Below are positions 31,304 to 39,318 of a stretch of 40,518 bases of DNA, in pieces. Under the pieces are notes generated by a model, which saw only the letters and a list, made by a program, of their open reading frames with translations, was not told the origin of the DNA and did no database searches. Both the position numbers and the translations under genes were made by a program. The stretch covers positions 1-40,518 of the forward strand of contig JAQXTC010000046.1 of assembly GCA_029219285.1 (NCBI GenBank), written 5' to 3'. This DNA is from Clostridiaceae bacterium (lineage in GTDB: Bacteria > Bacillota > Clostridia > Clostridiales > Clostridiaceae). How positions within the stretch are numbered: the first letter of the stretch is position 1; every line of letters starts with the position of its first letter.

Positions 31304-31566
31304 TAAATTAAAAACTTAAACAGCAATGATAAAGAGGAGTAAAAGTTTAGAAGTATTATAAGAGAGAGGATATTTGCTGAAAGTCCTTATACGGAAAACT
31401 TTGAAGGTAGCTTTTGAGCTTCTTTAGTGAAATATAAGTAACTAAAGACGGTTTGTCTAAATCGTTAAAATTTTAAGAGCCTATAAATAGCTTTATTAAG
31501 CTTGAGTAGGAATAAAGGTGGTAACGCGAGTCTTCGTCCTTTTGTGGATGAAGACTTTTTTTATTT
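31304..31566 (+). ncRNA. T-box leader, valine-specific (GUA specifier)
   Basis: tRNA-sensing leader of valS. The T-box core AGGTGGTAACGCG is at 31516-31528, and an intrinsic terminator stem (31529-31539 with 31546-31556) plus T7 follows. Stem I has AGAGAG at 31361-31366. The basal helix pairs AAAAG near 31341 with CTTTT at 31411-31415; the codon beside it on the 3' side is GTA (31407-31409) followed by a purine, the position of the specifier. GUA codes for valine and the gene is valS, so reading and function agree. Uncharged tRNA-Val would favour the antiterminator. This accounts for the gap 31260-31596. Confidence 0.93.
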
Positions 31567-36468: not shown

Positions 36469-37404
36469 CTATTTAGCTGAATGAGAATAAATATTAGCAA
36501 TTATAGCTCCAGAAATATTATGCCAAACACTAAATACTGCGCCTGGTATTGTAGCTAGTGGATATTGAGCAAAGTGAACTGTAGCTAAAGATGTTGCAAG
36601 ACCAGAATTTTGCATTCCCACTTCAATAGATATTGCTCTACATTTAGTAGTATCTAGTTTAAGTACTTTACCAATGGCATATCCTAATAAATAACCAATT
36701 ACATTATGGCATACAACTACAGCAATAATTAAAAAACCACATGTTAATATTTTTGAAGAATTTGCAGATACTACAGCAGCAACAATTGCAACTATAGCTG
36801 TTACAGAAACTAGTGGTAATACTTTAACAAGCTGTTTTGTAAAACTTGAAAATAATTTATTTATTATAAATCCTAAGATTATTGGTATAATTACAACTTG
36901 TATTATAGATAAAAACATACTTTGCATATTTACATCAACACTTTCACCTGCAAGTAAATAAGTTAAAAGTGGTGTTAAAAAAGGTGCAAGAACAGTTGAT
37001 ACAGCAGTCATTCCTACAGATAAAGCCACATCACCTTTTGATAAATAAGTCATAACATTAGAAGAAGTACCTCCAGGACAAGTTCCTACTAGAATAACCC
37101 CAACTGCTAATTCTACAGGAAGATTGAAAGCTTTACTCAAAAGATAAGCCAATAGAGGCATAATAGTAAATTGAGCTAAACATCCAATAATTACGTCTTT
37201 AGGACGGCTAAAGACTATTTTAAAATCACCTAATTTTAGTGTAAGCCCCATGCCAAACATTACTACCCCTAATAATGTATTTACATAGCTTGTCTTTATC
37301 CATGATACTGAATTTGGAATAAACAAGGCAAGAGCTGCAATTAGAATAACAAATACAGCCATATATTTTCCTACGAAACTACTTAATTTTTCTAAAAATT
37401 TCAT
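36469..37404 (-). CDS. Bile acid:sodium symporter (BASS) family transporter
   Basis: A 311-residue membrane protein with about nine to ten helices. It contains the family motifs GVVMFGMGLTLKLGDF, VGTCPGGTSSNVMTYL (near 107) and EVGMQNSGLATSLA, the segments that form the sodium and substrate sites in BASS proteins. Bacterial and plastid relatives carry bile acids, pyruvate, ketopantoate or other 2-oxo acids with Na+. The leader is an isoleucine-type T-box, which suggests that the cargo relates to isoleucine supply (for example a branched-chain 2-oxo acid); this is inference. GGGGG precedes the ATG. Confidence 0.92.
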   Translation of the reverse strand: MKFLEKLSSFVGKYMAVFVILIAALALFIPNSVSWIKTSYVNTLLGVVMFGMGLTLKLGDFKIVFSRPKDVIIGCLAQFTIMPLLAYLLSKAFNLPVELAVGVILVGTCPGGTSSNVMTYLSKGDVALSVGMTAVSTVLAPFLTPLLTYLLAGESVDVNMQSMFLSIIQVVIIPIILGFIINKLFSSFTKQLVKVLPLVSVTAIVAIVAAVVSANSSKILTCGFLIIAVVVCHNVIGYLLGYAIGKVLKLDTTKCRAISIEVGMQNSGLATSLATVHFAQYPLATIPGAVFSVWHNISGAIIANIYSHSAK

Positions 37405-37433
37405 TTTAGAACCCCCTTAATATATATTGTATA

Positions 37434-37720
37434 ATAAAAAAATCCTTTATCTCTTAAAAACCAAGAGACAAAGGATTAAATCATCTGCGGTACCACTCTT
37501 ATTGCTAAAAATATAAGCCACTTTATTCATATCAAACAATATGAAACATTATAACGTATGTTAATCGTTTCTGCTTACAGTATAGTTTTTTCGGCAGAAA
37601 TTCTCAAAGGTGATTTTCATATAAATAATAATACTGAATTACACCAATTATCAGCTCTCTGAAATTATTAGTTTATATTACTCTTCCTTATCATAGAATA
37701 TATTTACAATTACTAATTTA
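37434..37720 (-). ncRNA. T-box leader, isoleucine-type (AUC specifier), before the BASS transporter
   Basis: On the minus strand the T-box core AGTGGTACCGC (37487-37497) is followed by a terminator: 37463-37477 pairs with 37441-37455, then T7. Stem I carries AGAGAG (37655-37660) and GGTG (37642-37645). The specifier region reads GAAA-ATC-ACCTTTGAG, matching the usual layout of specifier, purine, basal helix and GAG; ATC is at 37612-37614, an isoleucine codon. The same layout gives the correct valine codon in the valS T-box of this window. This leader fills most of the 364-base gap 37405-37768. Confidence 0.88.
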
Positions 37721-37726
37721 ACAATA

Positions 37727-37755
37727 ATATTATACCTAATGGGACAAAATGTCAA
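37727..37755 (-). promoter_or_regulatory. Promoter of the BASS T-box leader
   Basis: On the minus strand TTGACA (37750-37755) and TAATAT (37727-37732) are 17 bases apart. It lies 14 bases after the stop codon of the DUF4179 gene, and no terminator is seen between them, so some readthrough from the sigma-factor operon is possible. Confidence 0.78.
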
Positions 37756-37768
37756 ATTATATTTAAAT

Positions 37769-38770
37769 TTATTTTATGTTTATATTAAAGTCAGAGATTA
37801 TATCATTATTTTCAGTATTTTTATCAAAAATCACAATTCTTAAACAAGTTGCATTTTCATCAACCTTTGGAAAGCTCCAAGTATAAGTAGTAACTCCGTT
37901 AGACTCTAATTCATGACCTTCATCAAAATACAAATGATTATTATTATTGTCAATAACGTCAATTATAGCACCACTTGGCAATTTTGCAGAACTTTCATAA
38001 ATTATTTTTGTACTAGATGGTGTTACTAATACTTCTTTTAAAGTGCAACTATTATTTGTTAGATTAGGCTTAAGATCAATATTATTACTAGTATCAATCA
38101 TAGTTTCAAAATTAAAATTCCATGCACCATATATTTTAGTGTAAGGTTCATTTTCATCAGAAGAAGCAAATATTACCTCAGATATTTTGAGAGAAAAGTA
38201 AAGTGGTTTATCTAAATCTAAATTATCCTTATCTATTTGAGACAAATCAATTGTTTGCATTCCTGCAAAGGTATTTTCATTAAGATAATTTCCTTCTATT
38301 GAACTAACTTCTAATCTAGTATTTATATTATTTAATTTGATTTCAGGATATAAACTAAAACCTTCTGCATTTGGATTACGTAAAGGATTATCCCCTTCGA
38401 TAAGATAAGATACTGAGGCTTTATTTCCGTCGCATGATACTTGAGACAGTGTGATTGTTATGCCATTATCTCTAGCTACTGTATTTAAAGTTTTACAATT
38501 TTTATATTCATCACCAGATTGGTAAGTAGATTTAGAATCAGCTGAAGAATGAAGGTACTCAAAAATATCGCCTAAAATTGGAATTGATGATGCAGTTACG
38601 GGATTACTTATTCCTAGTCCTATAGTTGATAATAAAACTACTGCTGCAGCTATTTTTATGATTTTATAATTTGCTTTTCGCTTTTTTAAATGAAGGCTAG
38701 CTTTATTAATAGTCTTATCAGTTATCTCATCCAAATTATTAGGTATTTTAATCATATCATATTTATTCAT
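37769..38770 (-). CDS. DUF4179-domain membrane protein, likely regulator of the adjacent sigma factor
   Basis: A 333-residue protein. A short cytoplasmic N-terminus (about 1-40) is followed by one membrane helix (about 41-60, IIKIAAAVVLLSTIGLGI) and a large extracytoplasmic domain. PVTASSIPILGDIFEYL just after the helix is typical of DUF4179 proteins. The gene starts inside the end of the sigma-factor gene (eight-base overlap, GGAGG site), the arrangement of an anti-sigma factor with its ECF sigma. The anti-sigma role is inferred from position and topology; there is no zinc-binding anti-sigma motif. Confidence 0.87.
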   Translation of the reverse strand: MNKYDMIKIPNNLDEITDKTINKASLHLKKRKANYKIIKIAAAVVLLSTIGLGISNPVTASSIPILGDIFEYLHSSADSKSTYQSGDEYKNCKTLNTVARDNGITITLSQVSCDGNKASVSYLIEGDNPLRNPNAEGFSLYPEIKLNNINTRLEVSSIEGNYLNENTFAGMQTIDLSQIDKDNLDLDKPLYFSLKISEVIFASSDENEPYTKIYGAWNFNFETMIDTSNNIDLKPNLTNNSCTLKEVLVTPSSTKIIYESSAKLPSGAIIDVIDNNNNHLYFDEGHELESNGVTTYTWSFPKVDENATCLRIVIFDKNTENNDIISDFNINIK

Positions 38771-39318
38771 TACAAATATCCTCCTTTAAAATCTTATACA
38801 ATTGTTGTTTAGATCTTCGTATGTGCGATTTAATTGTGTTCTCAGACATGTTTAGCATTAATGACATTTCTTTAATAGAAAAACCATGAAAATATTTTAG
38901 AATTATGATAGTTTTTTTATCAACTGGTAAACAATCAATTGCATTATATAAATCAAGTTTCTTTTCAATATCTAAATCATTTTCTTCTATAGTATAAATA
39001 TCATTATTATCAATAGATATTTTTTGACTTTTATCTTTTAACATATCATTTGCATTGTTAATAAGAATTTTAGTTATCCATGTTTTGAAAAATTCTGGAT
39101 TCTTTAACTTGTGTATATTAATAAAAGCTTTATATATAGTATTTTGATAGAGTTCAATTGCATCCTGTTCGTTTTTTTACATAAAGGAAAGCAGTCTTAT
39201 AAAGATAACTTTCATATTCTGTAACAACTTCTTTAAATGAAGTTTTACTACCTTTAATTGCTTTTTTAATAGTTATGTTCTTTTCTGTAAAAGCAATATT
39301 TGTTATTGTTGTTTGCAT
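38763..39318 (-). pseudogene. ECF-type RNA polymerase sigma factor, interrupted by one frameshift
   Basis: The product without the break is 184 residues, normal for ECF sigma factors. Starting at ATG 39316-39318 (AGGAGGGTAATA before it), region 2 runs in frame through YLYKTAFLYVK, then an A7 run (39172-39178) shifts the frame into an early stop. With one A removed it continues as NEQDAIELYQNTIYKAFINI and KTWITKILINNA, then region 4 (LPVDKKTIIILKYFHGFSIKEM, NTIKSHIRRSKQQL), a typical helix-turn-helix. The coupled DUF4179 gene supports it being a functional pair. Sequence error, mutation or phase variation are all possible. Confidence 0.88.
39172..39178 (-). other. A7 frameshift site in the sigma factor gene
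   Basis: The minus strand reads GT-A7-CG; six A residues would keep the sigma factor in a single 184-residue frame. This is the second A7-linked frame break in the window, in the opposite sense to the one at 9889. Confidence 0.8.

Follow-up and report, generated by a model that had tools for sequence, protein, structure and literature searches.

The window, as we call the whole 40,518-nucleotide stretch of Clostridiaceae DNA that was analysed, carries on its minus strand a gene (36469..37404) for a 311-amino-acid transporter, preceded on the same strand by a T-box leader RNA. An initial annotation of this DNA had placed the product in the bile acid:sodium symporter (BASS) family, and its score against Pfam SBF (174.9 bits, cut-off 24.3) upholds that assignment. 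No second SBF gene was found in the window genome. The protein is 54.6% identical over 306 residues to ASBT-NM of Neisseria meningitidis, and its best NCBIfam match is PanS (NF047939), with 301.3 bits against a cut-off of 400; the score for the bass subfamily, TIGR00841, is likewise below its cut-off (294.5 against 326.3 bits). The gene is apparently monocistronic. Since the genes upstream on the same strand (for an anti-sigma-like protein and a sigma-factor fragment) stop before a promoter-like site and the downstream gene is convergent, the transcript seems to contain the BASS gene only, and this single gene behind its T-box shows no linkage to panC or panD. The sigma-factor ORF at 38763-39044 (-), which adjoins the DUF4179 anti-sigma-like gene, has 93 amino acids and looks truncated, its match to such factors being confined to their C-terminal part (region 4).

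The leader runs from stem I to the antiterminator at 37461..37703 (-) and scores 121.7 bits against the covariance model RF00230 (E 1.2e-26, cut-off 93), which rules out a chance T-box. Its core, AGAGTGGTACCGC, contains the bulge UGGU at 37492..37495 (-), which is predicted to pair with the 3′ end of the tRNA and is invariant in 24 of 24 aligned leaders. The discriminator position of tRNA-Ile is an A, with which a UGGU bulge is compatible. An intrinsic terminator, a stem followed by a T run, lies at 37441..37477 (-) and is overlapped by the antiterminator, so that the leader combines a UGGN bulge with competing terminator and antiterminator, the features by which a T-box is recognised. One terminator was found here, compared to a mean of 0.1 in shuffled sequence, and its hairpin folds with −17.8 kcal/mol (z −5.67 versus shuffles) and shows compensatory changes among the 24 aligned leaders. 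The T-box core and terminator that the annotation had seen on the minus strand are thus both present. Taken in isolation, stem I of this leader folds no better than shuffles (z −0.10), so the stem I call depends on the covariance model; the isolated antiterminator (−6.6 kcal/mol, z −0.19) likewise does not surpass shuffles. Flanking the leader are a promoter-like site, TTGACA-17-TAATAT at 37727..37755 (-), which is a consensus match only and weak evidence given 14 such sites in the region against a shuffle average of 5.5, and a ribosome-binding site, AAGGGGG at 37412..37418 (-), read from the sequence.

The specifier, located from the sequence and the leader alignment, is the isoleucine codon AUC at 37612..37614 (-). 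This reading can be judged against the other T-boxes of the window genome (2.87 Mb in 262 contigs), which yields 22 T-box matches, 19 of them above the cut-off. When the specifier is found by counting back from the GAG that closes stem I (GAA in trpS), the codon obtained by this layout is the cognate one for every match with a recognised gene, 17 of the 22: cysK (UGC), brnQ (AUC), leuS (UUG), valS (GUA), alaS (GCU), pheS (UUC), trpS (UGG), glnS (CAA), ileS (AUC), thrS (ACU), argS (AGG), asnS (AAC), tyrS (UAC), proS (CCA), glyS (GGA), trpE (UGG) and ilvN (AUC). These downstream genes were identified by eye from their N-termini, and valS by NCBIfam as well. The valS leader is the second T-box of the window, at 31317-31544 (+) with 124.7 bits, and serves as a layout control; the claim that one layout yields GUA for valS and AUC for the BASS gene holds for both. 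The five matches outside the layout check are the BASS leader itself, L005 (a regulator-like ORF, GCA), L006 (a small membrane protein, UGG), L020 (no ORF) and L022 (partial). Other specifier frames, such as AAU (Asn), are ruled out because AUC is invariant amid variable flanking bases in 24 leaders and because the layout holds for all 17 usable genes. Among the UGG leaders, that of the trpE-like gene (L019, 1007-1343) seems to have two antiterminator-terminator units behind one stem I, and that of L020 (195-463) is close to the end of a contig, no 60-amino-acid ORF being visible downstream of it.

The covariance-model search with specifier prediction that the initial annotation had proposed as a check therefore ends with a score over the cut-off and an AUC codon, and the isoleucine T-box upstream of the window BASS gene is confirmed. 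We consider it very likely that uncharged tRNA-Ile regulates the gene. In an isoleucine shortage, this tRNA would pair at two sites, the AUC of stem I and the UGGU of the antiterminator; with the tRNA bound, the terminator would fail to form and the BASS transporter would be made. The leader resembles the isoleucine-class T-boxes of ileS, brnQ and ilv operons in its stem I, AUC, UGGU, antiterminator and terminator and in passing the Rfam cut-off, but it differs from them in controlling a BASS carrier and in having the variant GGTACCGCAGA in its antiterminator.

To survey BASS genes for T-boxes, another check that had been suggested, we compiled 117 distinct BASS loci including the window: 80 from named genomes, 5 from relatives, 13 from the class and 19 from the G074 family, with loci L109-L133 (31% identity or less) excluded from the counts. 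The core pattern was searched upstream of all 117 over 600 nt (700 nt for L168-L180, less at contig ends) and the Rfam search covered about half of them, so a divergent T-box could be missed. A T-box core lies directly upstream of the BASS gene at 20 of the 117 loci. Sixteen of these leaders (the window, L107 and 14 others) pass the RF00230 cut-off; the other four (L026, L030, L033 and L191) have the core without reaching it, L026 being cut by a contig end. At seven further loci (L041, L045, L047, L049, G606, G496 and G491) the T-box, in each case over the Rfam cut-off, precedes ilvD and then the BASS gene, 18-71 nt after the end of ilvD in all seven. Counting both arrangements, all 26 readable leaders carry AUC; L026 is unreadable. 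In an alignment of 24 of the 27 leaders AUC and UGGU are invariant, and at least one two-sided, pair-keeping change occurs in 28 of 44 predicted pairs, a count that gives rough support only, as the 44-pair consensus mixes competing structures.

The association is patchy. At 89 of the 117 loci we found no T-box and no T-boxed ilvD next to the BASS gene; among these are G032 of the same genus, several Lachnospiraceae (L035, L037, L042) and other Firmicutes. Many of the loci without a T-box belong to phyla in which T-boxes are rare or absent. The nearest relatives of the window protein occur in Lachnospiraceae-type genomes and the like (L024, 81% identity), and a close relative is present in only three of 35 same-genus genomes: G032 (64%, no T-box), G019 (48%, T-box) and G013 (48%, none in 310 nt). 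The antiterminator variant GGTACCGCAGA occurs eight times among 60 core matches, counting both strands of 51 T-box loci, and since all eight are in BASS or ilvD-BASS leaders, this distribution suggests that leader and gene moved together. Some BASS relatives have other neighbours; in two Treponema MAGs (L046, L031) they adjoin an O-acetylhomoserine sulfhydrylase-like gene, recognised by eye, rather than ilv genes.

What a BASS carrier might bring to a cell short of isoleucine is suggested by ilvD. We searched 32 hand-picked genomes for IlvC (PF01450), IlvD (PF00920) and IlvB (TIGR00118, at E up to 1e-50 only) and found IlvD in 31, IlvB in 28 and IlvC in 27. Only three of the 32 have IlvD with neither IlvB nor IlvC detected: Fournierella massiliensis DSM 100451 (G074), Gemmiger sp. 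An50 (G075) and a Pygmaiobacter MAG (G076), all three from the Oscillospiraceae, for all of which the lack of IlvB and IlvC means undetected in assemblies of ungauged completeness. All three carry the T-box(AUC)-ilvD-BASS arrangement. Their IlvD proteins score 794-800 bits against a TIGR00110 cut-off of 618; G074 and G075 have the branched-chain aminotransferase ilvE_II (399-401 bits, cut-off 250), and G076 has two matches to the wider aminotransferase family (PF01063). Because the three are close relatives, IlvB and IlvC may have been lost in a single evolutionary event. Elsewhere in the set, G066 is without IlvC only, G073 has a BASS gene with none of IlvB, IlvC and IlvD detected, and the other genomes with a same-strand ilvD-BASS pair, G078 (which, like the three, is among the seven with T-box-ilvD-BASS) and G399, have both IlvB and IlvC. 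The branched-chain pathway variants in the accessible part of PMC9026213 include no IlvD-only variant.

An IlvD without IlvB and IlvC would be useless unless its substrate came from outside, which points to that substrate as the cargo. The leader, the specifier, the gene family, the conserved linkage, the ilvD operon and the failure to detect IlvB and IlvC are supported computationally, and from them we infer the tRNA response, the sodium coupling, the direction of transport and the cargo. Import of an isoleucine precursor is likely. We favour, with moderate confidence, an isoleucine T-box-controlled importer of 2,3-dihydroxy-3-methylvalerate, a counterpart of the panDC-panS salvage of pantoate. 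The carrier would probably be sodium-coupled, and its cargo would most likely be the (2R,3R) form of this acid, the substrate of IlvD, possibly along with 2,3-dihydroxyisovalerate; IlvD and an aminotransferase would then turn the imported dihydroxy acid into isoleucine (and valine). In some relatives, in which IlvB and IlvC were not detected, import would be the only route. We regard as evenly balanced the broader proposal that this is an unnamed salvage, by which an isoleucine T-box, dihydroxy-acid dehydratase and a BASS importer enable gut Firmicutes no longer possessing acetohydroxyacid synthase and reductoisomerase to convert 2,3-dihydroxy-3-methylvalerate from their neighbours into isoleucine, and in which the window gene is a stand-alone importer.

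The same linkage bears on the other cargoes that might be considered. Isoleucine itself, or a broad range of branched-chain substrates, would suit an isoleucine T-box, and a brnQ-like gene of the window genome (L002, by eye) is also under an AUC T-box; the BASS carrier would then duplicate BrnQ. We consider this very unlikely, since it leaves the linkage to ilvD unexplained. Moreover, to our knowledge the substrates of BASS proteins are organic acids and bile acids, with no amino acids among them, which also counts against it. Similarly improbable is a carrier that exports or re-imports leaked intermediates, balancing an IlvD with a fragile iron-sulphur cluster instead of scavenging from neighbours. 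Such a role would suit G399, where the order T-box(GUA, valine)-ilvC-ilvD-BASS-ilvB-ilvN places the gene among the enzymes of a present pathway, and dihydroxyisovalerate is described, in the available part of PMC5678825, as accumulating extracellularly in engineered yeast limited at this step. However, where no IlvB or IlvC is detected the intermediate should not be made, and there would be nothing to leak. In G399 an AUC T-box (L217, 4598-4401 (-)) diverges from the valine T-box of that operon; the roughly 550 nt between this AUC T-box and the next gene contain no ORF of at least 90 amino acids on the strand of the T-box. In Campylobacter sp. MIT 21-1684, ilvD and the BASS gene are divergently oriented.

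A branched-chain 2-oxo acid, either 3-methyl-2-oxovalerate or 2-oxobutyrate, that reaches isoleucine by transamination or through the pathway deserves more weight, although we still think it unlikely. It would accord with the isoleucine specifier of all 26 readable leaders and with the cargoes of related carriers: plant BASS5 and BASS2, of the same family and with organic acids as cargo, as the window protein would have, are 2-keto acid and pyruvate carriers (according to the available text of PMC10645422), and Salmonella PanS is reported, in the part of PMC12570885 accessible to us, to transport both ketopantoate and pantoate, which makes a 2-oxo acid possible as cargo. Such a cargo leaves unexplained why ilvD is retained in genomes without detected IlvB and IlvC, and the binding pocket also speaks against it.

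The positions of the two-sodium site and cross-over helices of ASBT-NM, Q77, S114, N115, S128, T132, E260 and Q264, are conserved in the window protein, as are Thr112, Asn265, Gly267, His294 and Asn295. In the window protein, Thr, Asn, His and Asn occupy the positions that contact pantoate. The 18 pocket and sodium positions examined do not differ among the 17 distinct directly T-boxed and seven ilvD-linked proteins compared, groups that exclude L107 and L191, L195, L196, L201 and L202 (internal stops); L057, L093 and L172, which are without a clean reading frame from the start of the match, were excluded from this comparison and from the trees. L107, 48% identical and under an isoleucine T-box, differs in the pocket (V112, A266, S295). 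Where ASBT-NM has Phe, Ile and Ala at 15, 47 and 113, the window protein and the other compared T-boxed proteins have Met, Val and Ser, a pattern that is non-specific because it is also frequent in T-box-free relatives. As far as the accessible part of PMC10645422 goes, ASBT-NM holds pantoate through its carboxylate and 2-hydroxyl and binds pantoate but not ketopantoate, which did not stabilise it; plant BASS carriers are described there as having serine and glutamine at the positions of Asn265 and Thr112, which the authors suggest may permit keto acid binding, whereas the window protein keeps Asn and Thr. The pocket is thus that of a protein that did not bind the 2-oxo acid offered to it. Together with the ilvD linkage and the undetected IlvB and IlvC, it points to a dihydroxy acid. 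From the initial annotation, which had named 2-oxobutyrate, 3-methyl-2-oxovalerate or isoleucine, import of an isoleucine precursor therefore survives as the likeliest role, and the exact molecules that it named are probably wrong.

Pantoate and 2,3-dihydroxy-3-methylvalerate are isomers, both C6H12O4. Another reading is that the window gene encodes a PanS-like carrier of pantoate or ketopantoate that came under isoleucine control because the two pathways share enzymes. PanS is its top NCBIfam match, and six relatives at 47-53% identity adjoin panC or panD. The score below the cut-off does not help to decide, as the five of these six relatives that were scored (228-290 bits) fall short of 400 as well, and we rejected the cut-off as a discriminator. 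Other evidence makes this reading quite improbable. A tree of 52 rows groups five of the six pan-linked proteins in a clade of their own (support 100/99), and the pan-linked relatives have Ala at 47 in five of six and at 113 in all six, against Val and Ser in the T-boxed proteins. Furthermore, pantoate comes from the valine branch, so valine control would be expected, not isoleucine control. In the same tree, six T-box-BASS and six T-box-ilvD-BASS proteins form a clade of 12 (100/99), and two paralogues of G399, one beside panC and panD and one in the ilv operon, pair as sisters (100/99); no settled position emerges for the window protein, and L107 joins another long branch. Just 3′ of one pan-linked BASS gene, on the same strand, lies a SAM riboswitch (L178, 1185-1280 (-)).

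Our favoured importer of a dihydroxy acid nevertheless has its closest parallel in the salvage of pantoate. The available part of PMC6593275 describes a panD-panC-panS arrangement in predicted auxotrophs among gut Firmicutes, and the likeness lies in a partial pathway plus importer, where a related BASS carrier adjoins the enzyme acting on the imported intermediate. The differences are the partner enzyme, IlvD, the control by an isoleucine T-box and the score of the window protein, 301 bits where the PanS cut-off is 400. T-box control of a BASS gene is not seen in the accessible parts of Wels 2008 (PMC2494555), PMC3766115, PMC7778990, PMC11477304 or PMC12452182; dihydroxy acids are absent from PMC7470985, and nothing was found in PMC11651100. 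Among the matches listed, no title concerns T-box control of a BASS gene or the import of dihydroxy acids, although an earlier mention is possible. If the proposed role is correct, an orphan subgroup of BASS proteins, present in many genomes from gut and rumen, would gain a testable substrate, and the family name "bile acid symporter", which hides such a function, would be corrected. It would also suggest that an intermediate of branched-chain amino acid synthesis is traded between microbes, as has already been argued for pantoate, and calls of isoleucine auxotrophy would change for genomes that keep only ilvD.

The window organism itself can probably make isoleucine, to judge from its gene content. 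Its genome has ilvN-cimA-leuC-leuD-leuB-ilvD-ilvB-ilvC-leuA in one run, in which cimA, ilvD and leuA were identified by NCBIfam, ilvC and ilvB by profile search and the rest by eye. The only PF01063 aminotransferase match in the genome is one fragment at a contig end. As this organism has a full ilv-leu operon, salvage through the importer would only supplement its own synthesis. Upstream of the operon (L167, 1160-1326, contig C30) there is a T-box-like stem I with AUC that scores a sub-threshold 80.1 bits; a UGGN core is not recognisable in this leader, which may be degenerate or work differently.
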